The notes below the pieces were generated by a model. It was not told the origin of the DNA and made no database searches. It was given only the letters and a program-made list of their open reading frames with translations. Both the position numbers and the translations under genes were made by a program. A stretch of DNA of 64,000 bases, from contig NZ_JBCEXH010000004.1 in the NCBI RefSeq assembly GCF_038751955.1, forward strand, positions 62,001-126,000, read 5' to 3'. Shown here one piece after another: positions 21,280 through 27,915 of this stretch (the stretch's first letter is position 1; each line of letters starts with the position of its first letter). This DNA comes from Methanocalculus natronophilus (lineage in GTDB: Archaea; Halobacteriota; Methanomicrobia; Methanomicrobiales; Methanocorpusculaceae).

Positions 21280-21323
21280 ATGCTAGCTGTTTTATATCAG
21301 GAATACTAACATAATGCTAGTAT
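21280..21323 (+). promoter_or_regulatory. TATA box and repeat/dyad operator candidate of the ArsR-type gene
   Basis: TTTATATC at 21291-21298 is a good archaeal TATA box about 27 bp before the start codon at 21322, pointing to a leaderless or nearly leaderless mRNA. ATGCTAG occurs at 21280-21286 and again at 21314-21320, flanking the TATA box. A perfect 6-bp dyad, ATACTA (21303-21308) and TAGTAT (21318-21323), spans the start codon. A winged-helix protein bound there would block transcription of its own gene. Confidence 0.5.
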
Positions 21324-21957
21324 GCTTGATCATGTCGAGATGTCCCGCCTGCTTGACATCCTTGGAAACCGCAACCGGAGGCGGATTATAGAACTGCTCC
21401 GCCAGAAGCCATGCTTTGTCACCGAGATTTCCGATCGGCTCCTCCTCTCCCCAAAAGCAGTGATCGAGCACCTGAATATGATGGAGCGTGAGGCGCTTAT
21501 CTCGTTTTTCCTGGATGAACGGAGGCGAAAATACTATTTCCTTCAGACCGAGTTCGATCTCGTCGTCTCGGTGAAAGAGACCAGACGCACACAGCGGGTT
21601 GCAAGCCTTCCATCTGCTGATCTCCGCCTCATCGAATCACTCTCCATGCTCCGCCGGATGGCACGCGCCCGCGAGAGCCTTCTTGATACGCTTGAGAACC
21701 TTGAGCGGGACATCGAGGCGACGATGAATGAGATCGTCAGGATGAGTCGGAGCGAGGAGAGCAGGGAGACTGATCTCGATATCATTATTACGCTCTCCCA
21801 CCAGGATCTCACCCTTGATGAGCTTGCAGAAATCATGGAGACAGACACATCAATAATCCAGGCCTCGCTTGCAGACCTGAAAGCCCGGGGGATTGTCACG
21901 CAGGAGGGGGATCGCTTCTCTATCGAGGGTATCTATGGAACACCACAGGGATCATGA
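21322..21957 (+). CDS. ArsR-type winged-helix transcriptional regulator
   Basis: A 211-residue regulator. The N-terminal winged helix reads 'LDILGNRNRRRIIELLRQKP', 'CFVTEISDRLLLSPKAVIEH' and 'REALISFFLDERRRKYYFL'. A helical middle follows (residues about 95-150, likely dimerising), and the C-terminal part contains a second helix-turn-helix-like segment 'LTLDELAEIMETDTSIIQAS'. The effector is unknown. It overlaps the following Hsp20-like gene by 23 nt, so the regulator likely controls that operon, possibly in response to heat or protein stress. Repeats around its TATA box suggest autoregulation. Confidence 0.85.
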   Translation: MLDHVEMSRLLDILGNRNRRRIIELLRQKPCFVTEISDRLLLSPKAVIEHLNMMEREALISFFLDERRRKYYFLQTEFDLVVSVKETRRTQRVASLPSADLRLIESLSMLRRMARARESLLDTLENLERDIEATMNEIVRMSRSEESRETDLDIIITLSHQDLTLDELAEIMETDTSIIQASLADLKARGIVTQEGDRFSIEGIYGTPQGS

Positions 21958-22324: not shown

Positions 22325-22362
22325 GCCGGGTGCAGAGTACGATAGCACTTGGTTTGCCAGCA

Positions 22363-22992
22363 TCACGCTTCGTAACTGTCGTCTGTCCAGACATGGGATG
22401 AGTGCCGGGGTTTTTGAAACTGATCTGCTTTTAGCCTGCCTGCCTGCCCCCCCTCTCTTTGATAGAGGACGTTGCCTGCGATTATCTGCTGATACACTGC
22501 CTGCTCTCTCTCCGAAAGTCTCCTGAATGCATCGTCTGTCAGTATCATTGCAGCGACATCTCTTCCTCCAACCGGGGTGTGAGCCCGGATACACTCTTCT
22601 GCAACGCCTGCATCATCTGTTCTGATACAGAGTCCAATCTCGCTCTCTGCGGTATCGGTTCCGTCTGCACAGCTGCCAAAGAGAATAATTGTACTGGATA
22701 CAGCCTCAAGGTCGGAGAGGAGGCTGCTGCATTCAAACAGGGTGATCAGAATCTTCATCTCACGCAGCAGGGGGCTTGATTCCCGTGCCTGGTAGGTGAC
22801 AATACGCCCCCGCTCCCTGCGCCTGATTATTCCGGCACCTGCAAGCTCCACTAAGGTCTCACTCACCGGGCCAAGCGGGAGCCCGAGTTCCCGCGACAGT
22901 TCCCTCACATAGAAGGTGTCGCGGGGGTGCCTGCCCAGGTGCCTGATGAGTGTGAAGGCTCTTTCCGAACATATGTTCGATAATGTGAACAT
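22363..22992 (-). CDS. Winged-helix protein fused to a degenerate nucleotidyltransferase domain
   Basis: A 209-residue protein. Residues 1-75 form a winged helix ('TFYVRELSRELGLPLGPVSE', 'LAGAGIIRRRERGRIVTYQA'). Residues 100-165 form an MNT-like nucleotidyltransferase core: 'LFGSCADGTDTAESEIGLCI' keeps the G-S and the X10 spacing, but the D-X-D is E-I-G, so metal catalysis is probably lost. This points to a DNA-binding repressor using a dead nucleotidyltransferase fold as sensor or dimer domain. Its start codon lies in a pair of palindromes (see 22966-23018). No HepT-like partner is adjacent. Confidence 0.8.
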   Translation of the reverse strand: MFTLSNICSERAFTLIRHLGRHPRDTFYVRELSRELGLPLGPVSETLVELAGAGIIRRRERGRIVTYQARESSPLLREMKILITLFECSSLLSDLEAVSSTIILFGSCADGTDTAESEIGLCIRTDDAGVAEECIRAHTPVGGRDVAAMILTDDAFRRLSEREQAVYQQIIAGNVLYQREGGQAGRLKADQFQKPRHSSHVWTDDSYEA

Positions 22993-23018
22993 ATGTTCGT
23001 ATATTAGAACATTAGGCT
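22966..23018 (-). promoter_or_regulatory. Phased palindromic operators GAACATATGTTC
   Basis: The 12-bp palindrome GAACATATGTTC occurs at 22967-22978 (14 bp if CG/CG flanks are counted) and at 22987-22998. A half site GAACAT follows at 23007-23012. The three starts are exactly 20 bp apart, about two helical turns, so all face one side of the DNA. The ATG of the minus-strand winged-helix gene (22990-22992) lies inside the second palindrome and the first is in its early codons. Autorepression by a winged-helix dimer is the simplest reading. Confidence 0.7.
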
Positions 23019-23108
23019 ATAAGCATTTCCCTTCTCTTGAGAAGTACACTGCTAAAAAATTGGGGTGAAGGGAAACCCCATGTCGTCTGGGTATGATACC
23101 ACGTGTGG

Positions 23109-23720: not shown

Positions 23721-25847
23721 ATGATCCCTATGGAGACGAACAACATGAGCCGGGACGAACCAGCACACTCGGTTCTCTTATTCACGCCAAAAGTGTTTTT
23801 GAATCGTGAACTCTCCTGGATACAGTTCAACAGGCGGGTCCTTGAGGAGGCCAGGGATCCGAACCATCCGCTTCTGGAACGGGTAAAGTTCCTCTCGATA
23901 TTTGGCAATAACCTGGATGAATTTGTGATGATCCGTCTCTCCGGACTCTGGAGACAGGCCGAAGCAGGAGCACTTGAGCGGCCACCGGATGGCCTCTCTC
24001 CGCAGGAGCAGATACAGGGAGTTCGAAAGGAACTGCTTCCTCTCCTTCAGGAGGCAGTCTCCTGTTTTGAAGATGAGCTGCTCCCCGAACTCCGGGATGA
24101 GGGGATCATCATCCACCGGATGGCCGATCTCAGGCCGGAGGATCAGAAGCATGCGCGGGATATCTTTCAGAAAGAGGTATTCCCTGTTGTCACGCCGATG
24201 GCTTTTGATGTCTCCCATCCATTCCCCTTTATCTCAAACCTCTCGCTGAATCTCGCTGTTGTGATAACTGATGAGAAGCGCGGCAGGCTCTTCTCCCGTG
24301 TGAAGGTACCGCGAACCCTTGGAAAACGGTTCGTCAGGCTGCCTGCCATGGAGGATACAGGAAGTGGTGAGAGCCATTATGTCATGCTTGAGGATCTCAT
24401 CACGGCAAACCTGGATCTTCTCTTCCCCGGAATGACGGTGGTTGCTGCCTATCCGTTCCGTGTAACACGGGATGCCGATTTTGAGATTGAGGAGGATGAA
24501 GCATCTGATCTCCTCACAACAATCGAGGAGAGCGTCGGGCACCGCCGGATCGGACGAGCTGTGAGGCTTGAGGTCGATCACTCGGCTCCCTCCTGGATCA
24601 GGGAGATGCTCCAGTCAAAACTCCGTCTCCACCCCGTTCAGGTCGATACCAGCACCGGTCCGATGGGTATGGCTGATCTGATGGAACTGACCGATAGCAA
24701 CAGGCCTGACCTCAAAGACCCTCCTTTCCTTCCCTCTGTTCCACGGGCCCTTGAACTGGAAAAGGCGATCTTTTCTGCGATCAGGAGGCAGGATCATCTC
24801 CTGTATCATCCCTATGACAGCTTCAACCCGGTTGTTGCCTTCATCAGGCAGGCTGCACGGGATCCTGATGTGCTCGCAATCAAGCAGACGCTCTACCGGG
24901 TTGGCCCGGATTCCCCGGTTGTCTCCGCCCTGATGGAAGCCCGTGAGATGGGCAAACAGGTGACTGTTCTGGTTGAGCTGAAGGCGCGGTTTGATGAGGA
25001 GAACAATATCACCTGGGCACGGGCACTTGAACGTGCAGGGGTGCATGTCGTCTATGGCTTAATCGGCCTGAAGGTCCATGCAAAACTCTGCATGGTGGTG
25101 CGCCGGGAACATGAGGGGCTTGTTACCTATACGCATATCGGGACCGGCAACTACAATGCCCAGACCGCCAGGGTGTATACGGATCTTGGTATTTTCACAG
25201 CAGATCCGGACGTGGGTGCAGATACAGCCGATCTCTTCAATGCCCTCACCGGCTACTCGACAAAGACCCGGTACAGGAGACTGCTTGTTTCCCATGGCAA
25301 AACCGGGACGATGCGCACATACCTTCTAGCGAGGATCGATTCTGAGATCCGGCATCACAAGGAGAGGGGGAATGGCTCTATCATCTTCAAGTGTAATGCG
25401 CTTGTGGATCCGGCAATTATTGCCGCTCTCTACCGGGCTTCACAGGAGGGTGTTGCCATCCACCTCCAGGTGCGTGGCATCTGCTGCCTCCGTCCCGGTG
25501 TCGTGGGTCTCTCGGAGACGATTTGTGTCTCCTCAATTGTCGGGCGGTTTTTGGAGCACACACGGATCTATTACTTCGGAAACGGGGGTGATGCAGAGGT
25601 ACTGATCGGATCTGCGGATCTGATGCCGCGAAACCTTGACAGGCGGGTTGAAGTCCTCTATCCGGTGCGGGATGAGAGGATCAGACAAGCAATCATCGAT
25701 CATATACTTGATCCGCATATCCGTGATACCCTGAAGTTGCGTACCATGAACCAGGATGGGACATACTCACGGGGATCTCCGGGGAAGATGCCACTTGACT
25801 CACAGGCATGGATGATCCAGAACAGGGGGATCTGGCATGGCGTCTGA
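23721..25847 (+). CDS. ppk1: Polyphosphate kinase 1, first paralog
   Basis: PPK1 reversibly polymerises the gamma-phosphate of ATP into polyphosphate. Domains in order are N ('FLNRELSWIQFNRRVLEEAR'), head, C1 and C2. The autophosphorylated histidine is in 'LKVHAKL' (about residue 453), and the second catalytic histidine is in 'GRFLEHTRIYYF' (about 613), so both active-site halves are present in about 708 residues. ATGs at 23712, 23721, 23730 and 23745 are all possible. It ends 'MIQNRGIWHGV', overlapping the next ppk by 11 nt. Confidence 0.95.
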   Translation: MIPMETNNMSRDEPAHSVLLFTPKVFLNRELSWIQFNRRVLEEARDPNHPLLERVKFLSIFGNNLDEFVMIRLSGLWRQAEAGALERPPDGLSPQEQIQGVRKELLPLLQEAVSCFEDELLPELRDEGIIIHRMADLRPEDQKHARDIFQKEVFPVVTPMAFDVSHPFPFISNLSLNLAVVITDEKRGRLFSRVKVPRTLGKRFVRLPAMEDTGSGESHYVMLEDLITANLDLLFPGMTVVAAYPFRVTRDADFEIEEDEASDLLTTIEESVGHRRIGRAVRLEVDHSAPSWIREMLQSKLRLHPVQVDTSTGPMGMADLMELTDSNRPDLKDPPFLPSVPRALELEKAIFSAIRRQDHLLYHPYDSFNPVVAFIRQAARDPDVLAIKQTLYRVGPDSPVVSALMEAREMGKQVTVLVELKARFDEENNITWARALERAGVHVVYGLIGLKVHAKLCMVVRREHEGLVTYTHIGTGNYNAQTARVYTDLGIFTADPDVGADTADLFNALTGYSTKTRYRRLLVSHGKTGTMRTYLLARIDSEIRHHKERGNGSIIFKCNALVDPAIIAALYRASQEGVAIHLQVRGICCLRPGVVGLSETICVSSIVGRFLEHTRIYYFGNGGDAEVLIGSADLMPRNLDRRVEVLYPVRDERIRQAIIDHILDPHIRDTLKLRTMNQDGTYSRGSPGKMPLDSQAWMIQNRGIWHGV

Positions 25848-27915
25848 AGAACCAGTAGATATCAATAAACCAGGCTACTACATCAACCGGGAGCTCTCCT
25901 GGCTCTCCTTCAACCGGCGGGTGCTTGCAGAGGCACATGATAGCACCCACCCGCTCCTTGAACGGATAAAGTTCCTTGCGATCTGCGGGAGCAACCTGGA
26001 TGAGTTCTTCATGGTCCGGGTATCCGGGCTCAGGCACCAGCTGAAGGACGGTGTCCCAAAGCCGCCGCCGGATGGGATGCTGCCTGCAGAACTCCTCTGG
26101 AAGCTTCAGCTTGAGGTCGCTGAACTCTACAGCCTCTATGATGAGACCTGGCAGGGGTCGCTTCTTCCGGCACTCCACGATGCCGGGATTACAATTCTCA
26201 GATACAGTGATCTTTCAACTGAAGAGAAAGAGGCGATGACGAACTACTTCCAGACGACCATATACCCGATCTTAACACCGATAGCAATCGATGCGGCCCG
26301 GCCGTTCCCCTTCATCTCCAACCTCTCGCTGAACCTTGCAGTTCTTCTGAAGACGACAGATGGCAGACGATACCTTGCACGGGTGAAGGTGCCCTCTCTC
26401 ACCTTTGGCCGGTTTATACCGGTTCCACCCGGCGGCAAAGGCCGATACCGGTTTCTGCTCCTTGAAGACCTTGTTGCAGAAAACCTGGCGCTCCTCTTTC
26501 CTGGTATGATCGTCGAGGGATCCTACAGGTTCAGGCTCACCAGGGATGCTGAGATCAAGGTGGTGCTCGATGAGGCGTCTGATCTCCTCTCGGCAGTCGA
26601 GGGATGTCTTGAGTGCAGGCGTACCGGCATGCCGGTACGGCTGGAAGTGGATCCAGGGATGCCTTCCCGCCTGATCCTCCTCCTCTCTGAGAGGCTGGGT
26701 CTTTTAGAACATGATGTCTTTGGGACATCGGGGTTCATTGCACATGCGGATCTCTGGCAGCTGCATGATCTCCACCGCCCGGATCTCCTTGATACGCCGT
26801 TTGTTCCCCATATTCCACAAGCTCCTGATATCGACGCAAATATCTTTGCAACAGCGAGGGGGCAGGACATACTCTTCTACCATCCCTATGACAGCTTCAG
26901 TCCGCTGGTGCGGCTCTTCAGGCAGGCGGCAGAGGACCCTGATGTTCTTGCAGTCAAGATCACGCTCTACCGGATCGACCGCAACTCTCCCATTGTTGAT
27001 GCACTGATGAAGGCACGGCAGAATGGCAAACAGGTGACGGTGGTCCTTGAGTTAAAAGCCAAATTCGATGAACAGAACAATATCACCTGGGCACGGGCAC
27101 TTGAACAGGAAGGCGTCCATGTTGTGTATGGCCATGAACGCCTGAAGATTCATGCGAAGGTTGCGATGATCGTCAGAAAAGAACGTGACGGCATCTGCCG
27201 CTACATCCACCTGAGTTCAGGTAACTATAACACAAAAACTGCCCGGATATATGGCGATATCGGGTATCTGACAGCAGATCCGGAGATTGCAGCCGATGTG
27301 ACCGAACTCTTCAATTATTTAACCGGGTATGCTGACGGGGAAACATTTCGAAAACTTCTTGTTGCGCCGATAACGCTCAGAGATGGTATCCTGATGAGGA
27401 TCGAGCGGGAGATCGAATGCCAGAAGAAGAACCAGTCCGGCTACATCTCGCTCAAGTTAAACGGACTCCTCGATCCGGATATCATCGGGGCACTCTATCG
27501 TGCATCCGGAGCGGGTGTCAGGATAGATCTCAATGTCCGGGGTCTCTGTGCACTCAGGCCCGGTGTCCCCGATATATCTGAGACGATCACCGTCACCTCC
27601 ATCGTGGGGCGGTTTCTTGAACATGCACGGATTTATCACTTTCATAATGGTGGTGATGACGAGGTCCTACTCGGCTCGTCCGACATGATGCAGCGGAACC
27701 TCAGGCGGAGAGTCGAAGTCCTATTTCCGGTGCGTGATCCGGCCATCAGGCGGGCTCTCATCAGGATACTGAAGATTCATCTCAGGGACAACGTCAAGGC
27801 ATGGCACCTCAGATCCGATGGCGTCTATGAGAAGATCCAGCCGGGTGAGGGTGAAGAACCATGCAACTCACAGGAGTGGCTGATTGCCCACCGGGGTGCC
27901 TGGCATGGGTGGTAA
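25837..27915 (+). CDS. ppk1: Polyphosphate kinase 1, second paralog
   Basis: A 692-residue PPK1 directly downstream of the first and clearly homologous along its whole length ('YINRELSWLSFNRRVLAEAH', 'LKIHAKV' with His at about 439, 'GRFLEHARIYHF' with His at about 596). Both catalytic histidines are kept, so it should be active. The two sequences differ throughout, which argues for an old duplication or separate acquisition rather than a recent copy. It overlaps the upstream ppk by 11 nt and the CHAD gene downstream by 11 nt, so all are translated from one mRNA. Confidence 0.95.
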   Translation: MASEEPVDINKPGYYINRELSWLSFNRRVLAEAHDSTHPLLERIKFLAICGSNLDEFFMVRVSGLRHQLKDGVPKPPPDGMLPAELLWKLQLEVAELYSLYDETWQGSLLPALHDAGITILRYSDLSTEEKEAMTNYFQTTIYPILTPIAIDAARPFPFISNLSLNLAVLLKTTDGRRYLARVKVPSLTFGRFIPVPPGGKGRYRFLLLEDLVAENLALLFPGMIVEGSYRFRLTRDAEIKVVLDEASDLLSAVEGCLECRRTGMPVRLEVDPGMPSRLILLLSERLGLLEHDVFGTSGFIAHADLWQLHDLHRPDLLDTPFVPHIPQAPDIDANIFATARGQDILFYHPYDSFSPLVRLFRQAAEDPDVLAVKITLYRIDRNSPIVDALMKARQNGKQVTVVLELKAKFDEQNNITWARALEQEGVHVVYGHERLKIHAKVAMIVRKERDGICRYIHLSSGNYNTKTARIYGDIGYLTADPEIAADVTELFNYLTGYADGETFRKLLVAPITLRDGILMRIEREIECQKKNQSGYISLKLNGLLDPDIIGALYRASGAGVRIDLNVRGLCALRPGVPDISETITVTSIVGRFLEHARIYHFHNGGDDEVLLGSSDMMQRNLRRRVEVLFPVRDPAIRRALIRILKIHLRDNVKAWHLRSDGVYEKIQPGEGEEPCNSQEWLIAHRGAWHGW

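Follow-up and report, generated by a model that had tools for sequence, protein, structure and literature searches.

An Orphaned HEPN-MNT Antitoxin with a Predicted Self-Operator Array in Methanocalculus natronophilus

The window, the whole stretch of 64,000 nucleotides of Methanocalculus natronophilus analysed here, contains a gene for a winged helix (wHTH) fused to an MNT domain, P0001, which starts inside an array of inverted repeats arranged in exact 20-bp steps. Taken as a whole, with a probability of about 0.7, the locus is read as an orphaned, enzymatically dead HEPN-MNT antitoxin that would still act as a dedicated autorepressor on its own array. A compact autoregulator had been proposed in an earlier note on this DNA and is still the best inference from the array and the winged helix, although as a prediction from sequence; the array is highly non-random and is better explained as the putative autoregulatory unit of a wHTH-MNT/HEPN family than it was in that note. 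The features are the following, with positions counted from the first letter of the window.

22363..22992, minus strand: orphan wHTH-MNT gene (P0001), 209 aa
22995..23010, minus strand: dyad 1, GTTCTAATATACGAAC, -18 to -3 from the ATG, in a register kept in 35 non-redundant loci
22975..22990, minus strand: dyad 2, GTTCACATTATCGAAC, +3 to +18, covering the start codon and codons 2-6
22967..22970, minus strand: third half-site GTTC, +23 to +26
22987..22998, unstranded: GAACATATGTTC, junction of dyads 1 and 2, containing the ATG start codon
22967..22978, unstranded: GAACATATGTTC, junction of dyad 2 and the third half-site, coding for N-I-C-S
23017..23023, minus strand: TATA-like element CTTATAG, about -31 to -25 from the ATG, placed by position
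22325..23108, unstranded: insert relative to six congeners, about 780 bp, the flanking genes being adjacent in the congeners

The Repeat Array at the Gene Start

Read along the coding strand, the array is GTTC(-18)-N8-GAAC-ATAT-GTTC(+3)-N8-GAAC-ATAT-GTTC(+23), that is two full 16-bp dyads, extending from -18 to +18 about the ATG, and a third half-site, and all its half-sites are perfect. The earlier note had described two perfect GAACATATGTTC palindromes and a half-site in exact 20-bp phase, with the start codon inside one of them, and all of this was recovered: the palindromes lie at 22967-22978 and 22987-22998, the half-site GAACAT follows at 23007-23012 with exact 20-bp steps between the three, and the ATG (22992-22990, minus strand) falls within the middle GAACATATGTTC copy. 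A full junction palindrome in the place of the third half-site is common to Methanogenium-like orthologues and one Methanosarcinaceae member. Transcription probably starts at the ATG itself, giving a leaderless transcript, as the position of the TATA-like CTTATAG would place it.

The string GTTC-N8-GAAC-ATAT-GTTC-N8-GAAC is present at the starts of orthologues from several Methanomicrobiales families, Methanoperedens, Methanosarcinaceae, and Thermoplasmata, in the same register though the encoded proteins are just 30-50% identical, and the ATG of the orthologues is made from the ATAT linker and the next G. In 35 non-redundant loci that were selected solely on the central GAACnnrTGTTC, leaving the outer half-sites unselected, each base of the outer GTTC at -18 is found in 33-35 loci and each base of the outer GAAC at +15 in 31-35. 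The constraint acts on the DNA and not on the protein, because the -18 half-site is non-coding and lies upstream of the gene, and because codon 5 can be M, A, T, L, V, or S and yet its third base is G in 35 of 35 loci. The same loci share an A/T-rich block at -35 to -24, consistent with a TATA element if transcription begins at the ATG. Since the archaeal operator holds the start codon, the constraint of DNA binding would dictate the first residues of the protein (MFxxxN).

The 20-bp Architecture in Archaea and Bacteria

The self-similarity of the start regions, expressed as z scores against dinucleotide shuffles, peaks at a lag of 20 both in the methanogen-type loci (z = 13.1), which were found partly through homology to proteins with N-terminal residues that the operator itself encodes and are therefore open to bias, and in the 61 other members (z = 9.5), which are free of it; the control genes of the same loci lack the lag-20 excess. 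A tandem-dyad score of at least 22 is reached by 57% of the family starts versus 0.24% of 417 control starts from the same loci, and some paralogues with weaker scores have no clear 20-bp dyads. The gene in the window has this self-operator architecture of 16-bp dyads repeated every 20 bp across the gene start and core promoter.

In the bacterial members the letters of the dyads differ (GCTC/GAGC, ATCC/GGAT), with the length of 16 bp and the 20-bp steps retained. The half-sites GTTC/GAAC are shared by archaea and several bacteria, GCTC or ACTC/GAGC are found in Dehalococcoidia and other Chloroflexi, ATCC/GGAT in Anaerolineales-type Chloroflexi, and TTTC or ATTC in some Clostridia and Omnitrophota. 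The bacterial dyads precede the start codon, and the -10 box often falls within them; in particular, the first dyad of the GCTC group encloses the -10 hexamer TATAAT, which in several loci is separated by 17-18 bp from a -35-like hexamer (TTGACT, TTGCTT, or TTGATT). That the array covers the core promoter in archaea and bacteria alike, whose transcription systems differ, speaks for repression and not for activation.

Covariation between the recognition helix and the half-site (GCTC with SANRALNEL, ATCC with SAVNLATRSL) is suggestive but follows the clades, and was set aside as evidence. Two variants of the layout were observed. In three Thermoplasmata-type starts (L095, L112, and L118) consecutive 16-mers are near-identical (GTTCGAAAAAGTGAAC with ACAT/ATAT), as if a 20-bp duplication had enlarged the array. 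In five Aminicenantes loci (L113, L115, L116, L119, and L138) the ATG is part of a GAGCATATGCCC-type junction and TATACT forms a -10 element of its own further upstream, a start-region layout that resembles, in bacteria, the archaeal one.

Uniqueness of the Array

Across the whole 2,003,496-bp genome, the exact 12-mer GAACATATGTTC occurs in two places only, both in the array, to which the exact matches of the 24-mer composite GTTC-N8-GAACATATGTTC are also confined. The palindrome is thus not common genome-wide; its being common outside promoters was the outcome that the earlier note had named as speaking against its reading. The suggestion that it offers a searchable site for further targets did not hold, since GAACATATGTTC is found only here in the genome and the relatives have one locus per genome; no further exact targets exist in the M. 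natronophilus genome, where the closest one-sided match (C4:161957) departs from the 24-mer at 2 positions and matches with 3 mismatches are near the level of the reversed-pattern control.

Among the 232 genomes of the order, 41 contain the composite, always at a single location, and none contains the control pattern read backwards. The start of a full-length family gene accounts for 32 of the 41 loci, and broken or contig-cut family genes for another five (genomes G068, G096, G101, G130, and G184); in G168 apparently only the first codons of a family gene are left, and in G113, G042, and G142 the array is present with no recognisable family gene, and in these genomes it may serve something else or survive as a relic. 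As the composite occurs once per genome and mostly at a family gene, the regulator appears to be dedicated to its own operon.

The bare arrays have neighbours of their own. In G113 (locus L170) the GTTC-N8-GAAC array at 1500-1536 has no family gene beside it; roughly 180 bp away, at 996-1322 on the minus strand, is an independent minimal MNT gene (PF01909, with an intact SDID), and a relic or an exchanged module is possible. The other bare array is found in two species of one genus, G042 (L179/L185, at about 1500-1536 in L179) and G142 (L178), and a family search of both genomes found no family member; in L179 it adjoins a PemK/MazF-like toxin gene (PF02452, 1581-1913, minus strand).

The Protein and its Catalytic Loss

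P0001 consists of an ArsR-like winged helix (about residues 8-75), a linker helix, an MNT domain (about 97-178), and a disordered C-terminal tail without homology (about 180-209). The fusion of a DNA-binding domain to an MNT fold, as first read from the sequence, is supported by Pfam, with IclR/MarR/HVO_A0114-type matches at the N-terminus (HTH_IclR above cut-off) and weak matches to the polymerase-beta/MNT domain at the C-terminus, and by a high-confidence AlphaFold model built on an 82-member alignment (mean pLDDT 90, disordered after about residue 180). The modelled winged helix has an ArsR-type fold and is closest, by Foldseek, to the ArsR-type repressors PagR, HlyU, SqrR, and CadC; against the curated ArsR family NF033788 the protein scores 25.2 bits, below the cut-off of 55 bits. 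A single-sequence search for solved relatives of the whole protein returned nothing significant, and a profile search matched the MNT part to MntA antitoxin structures.

P0001 is 46-48% identical to orthologues from HEPN-MNT modules and is homologous over both domains to the antitoxin/M05A family: PADLOC gives a PDC-M05A match over residues 16-175 (E 4e-18), and the downstream HEPN of a relative matches PDC-M05B. NCBIfam returns MntA as a sub-threshold match for all 82 aligned members.

The nucleotidyltransferase had been called dead from the sequence, and the alignment agrees, with E118 and G120 in the place of the two aspartates of the 81 other aligned members. The catalytic motif GSx10DxD is changed to GSCADGTDTAE-S-E118-I-G120 (window sequence GSCADGTDTAESEIG), and among 96 non-redundant relatives it is intact in 95, the protein of the window being the sole loss. 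In MntA of S. oneidensis the substitutions D39E/D41E abolish modification of the toxin (PMC7641770). The predicted catalytic death is peculiar to the M. natronophilus copy and does not extend to the wHTH-MNT family. The original identification as a winged-helix/dead-nucleotidyltransferase gene was therefore right as to the folds and missed the HEPN-MNT antitoxin nature, the absence of the toxin, and the restriction of the catalytic loss to the window. Loss of a third catalytic carboxylate was also considered and was dropped, the column being unconserved.

The Missing Toxin and the Genomic Context

In the relatives the antitoxin (MNT) gene comes first and the HEPN gene second: of the 96 non-redundant relatives, 82 have a HEPN (PF05168) reading frame downstream, which in most cases overlaps the 3' end of the MNT gene. 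The window has neither a HEPN gene nor a remnant of one downstream of P0001, and a search of the whole M. natronophilus genome found no PF05168 HEPN, the same search being positive in control genomes.

In six congeners the order of IMPDH, the two-HTH protein, the hypothetical protein, the HEAT-repeat protein, and ppk is the same, and the site between the third and the fourth of these genes is empty, with no wHTH-MNT gene. Since the six are syntenic and lack the gene, the segment 22325 to 23108 is an insert in Methanocalculus natronophilus. Relatives on viral contigs and plasmids were sought and, at the sensitivity used, none was found.

Two neighbouring regions are described for completeness. 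The two-HTH neighbour at 21322-21957, with an ArsR-type N-terminus and a MarR-like C-terminus, is conserved (73-81% identical in the congeners) and syntenic with IMPDH, and polyphosphate-kinase-like genes form a tandem pair at 23739-27915 (about 23739-25847 and 25837-27915).

Proposed Mechanism and Alternatives

The module would have arrived as a wHTH-MNT/HEPN insert between two convergent genes, and the HEPN toxin gene and the nucleotidyltransferase active site would then have been lost. The ArsR-like winged helix is predicted to bind the two 16-bp dyads and the third half-site as dimers placed side by side. The 20-bp steps align the dyads along the same side of the DNA, and the array lies immediately past the TATA element and extends over the start codon. 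Once bound, it would block loading or escape of TFB/RNA polymerase on the leaderless promoter, so that the protein would repress its own gene and nothing else in the genome. Binding of P0001 to the array, repression, continued expression, and leaderless transcription are all inferred from sequence features.

Of the three 12-bp operator sites first proposed, the copies and the phasing stand, and the unit probably does not: the repeating unit is probably the 16-bp dyad GTTC-N8-GAAC, and GAACATATGTTC (GAAC-ATAT-GTTC) is the junction that joins neighbours. It is unlikely that one dimer binds each copy of the 12-mer, at three sites 20 bp apart, even though the M. natronophilus genome has two perfect GAACATATGTTC copies and a half copy, and the linker, ATAT or ACAT, shows good conservation among archaea and turns up again in several bacterial members; the conserved halves at the outer edges of the array complete GTTC-N8-GAAC and not GAACATATGTTC. 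The 16-mer is more likely the dimer site because most orthologues have exactly GTTC-N8-GAAC-ATAT-GTTC-N8-GAAC, that is two full 16-mers and one full 12-mer, and because symmetric 16-mers, such as GCTCATTATAATGAGC and TTTCATTAAAATGAAA, stand 4 bp apart in bacterial members. Recognition of the array by a trans-acting factor other than P0001, whose own binding is a prediction, could be argued from the three genomes that have arrays and no recognisable family gene; it is quite improbable, as the array tracks the wHTH-MNT family over phyla and domains, once per genome at the family gene, and the encoded protein itself carries an ArsR/SmtB-fold winged helix. An action of the repeats in the mRNA, through a hairpin or translational control at the start codon that they surround, is hardly credible, since the conserved -18 GTTC would precede a leaderless transcript, in bacteria the dyads overlie the -10 box and precede the start codon, and a 4-bp stem with an 8-nt loop is weak.

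The most substantial alternative concerns the present role of the gene, which may be decaying, with a tail without homology and the NTase lost. The locus could be the remnant of a toxin-antitoxin pair with no present role, whose operator and winged helix are intact because the losses of toxin and NTase are recent, an explanation that deserves real weight while being the less probable one. The missing HEPN gene, the lost DxD, the unrelated C-terminal tail, and the lack of a wHTH-MNT gene in the congeners all fit it, as do the broken family copies that are common in relatives (for example G068, G096, G101, and G184) and the frameshifted HEPN genes of L008, L011, and L100. The reading frame is, however, open across the full homologous length, the array is flawless, and, in comparison with the nearest 22 relatives, the window protein departs from none of the 15 conserved positions of the wHTH and from 6 of the 19 of the MNT domain, which uniform decay would not produce, the significance being modest (Fisher p = 0.024). 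Each other member of the 22-member clade has at most three MNT positions broken, and the window protein has the most negative MNT-minus-wHTH profile score in the clade. As far as one gene in one genome can show, this pattern favours an enzyme under weaker constraint and a DNA-binding half that has been kept. In five loci (L008, L011, L089, L096, and L100) the HEPN gene is split over several reading frames and the antitoxin is open, which suggests that toxin loss repeatedly precedes antitoxin loss. A further and doubtful extension of the autorepressor reading is that the orphan has been kept as a pure repressor, silencing incoming HEPN-MNT operons of the same type in trans in an anti-addiction, immunity-like role, with the MNT domain as a scaffold for dimerisation or HEPN binding.

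Relation to Known Systems and Significance

Dyad operators that overlap the core promoter are typical of ArsR/SmtB-type repressors, to which the best fold matches of the P0001 winged helix belong; P0001 differs from these in scoring below the NCBIfam cut-off, in its fusion to MNT, and in its tandem dyads at 20 bp over the start codon. In autoregulated type II antitoxins of the MazE, Phd, and VapB type, the DNA-binding domain of the antitoxin represses its own operon via repeated palindromes. The P0001 family is similar in having an antitoxin with a DNA-binding domain and predicted self-repression, whereas the folds are unrelated to wHTH-MNT.

The type VII HEPN-MNT systems (HepT/MntA) share with the relatives the MNT fold, the GSx10DxD motif, and the overlapping genes with the antitoxin first and the HEPN second. 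The wHTH-MNT family differs in the N-terminal winged helix and self-operators of its MNT protein and in its HEPN, which is PF05168 whereas the studied type VII partner is PF01934; the window copy differs also in D118E, D120G, and the absent toxin. In the intact wHTH-MNT members the neutralisation of the toxin is expected to be enzymatic. The PADLOC candidate defence system PDC-M05, formed by the nucleotidyltransferase M05A and the HEPN M05B, is presented as archaea-enriched and TA-like, with an unconfirmed antiviral role, in the passages of PMC12988326 found by keyword, which make no mention of a DNA-binding domain, an operator, or autoregulation. P0001 resembles it as an M05A match and departs from it in that M05B is missing from the window copy, whose active site is broken.

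Previous work on HEPN-MNT modules points elsewhere for their regulation. According to a comparative study of 2009, the MNT-HEPN antitoxin is not likely to regulate transcription itself, and a partner acting in trans was conjectured to bind the DNA (PMC2701414); a study of 2020 states that MNTs have a catalytic domain in place of a DNA-binding one (PMC7641770). The structural paper on Legionella contains no text on autoregulation (PMC11586414), and in 12 of the 34 keyword passages of PMC3710099 that were covered the wHTH appears only in other HEPN contexts. A literature search that took in few of the subscription papers found no report of self-operators for the wHTH-MNT family.

HEPN-MNT modules are among the commonest toxin-antitoxin systems, and in the wHTH-MNT family, archaeal and bacterial members alike, the DNA-binding part comes with the antitoxin itself, in cis. 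Its putative operator code, made of 16-bp dyads in 20-bp phase with clade-specific letters, is legible from the sequence alone and predicts how these modules switch themselves off. The copy of Methanocalculus natronophilus would represent a natural separation of functions, in which the regulator has been kept and the enzyme and the toxin have been lost.
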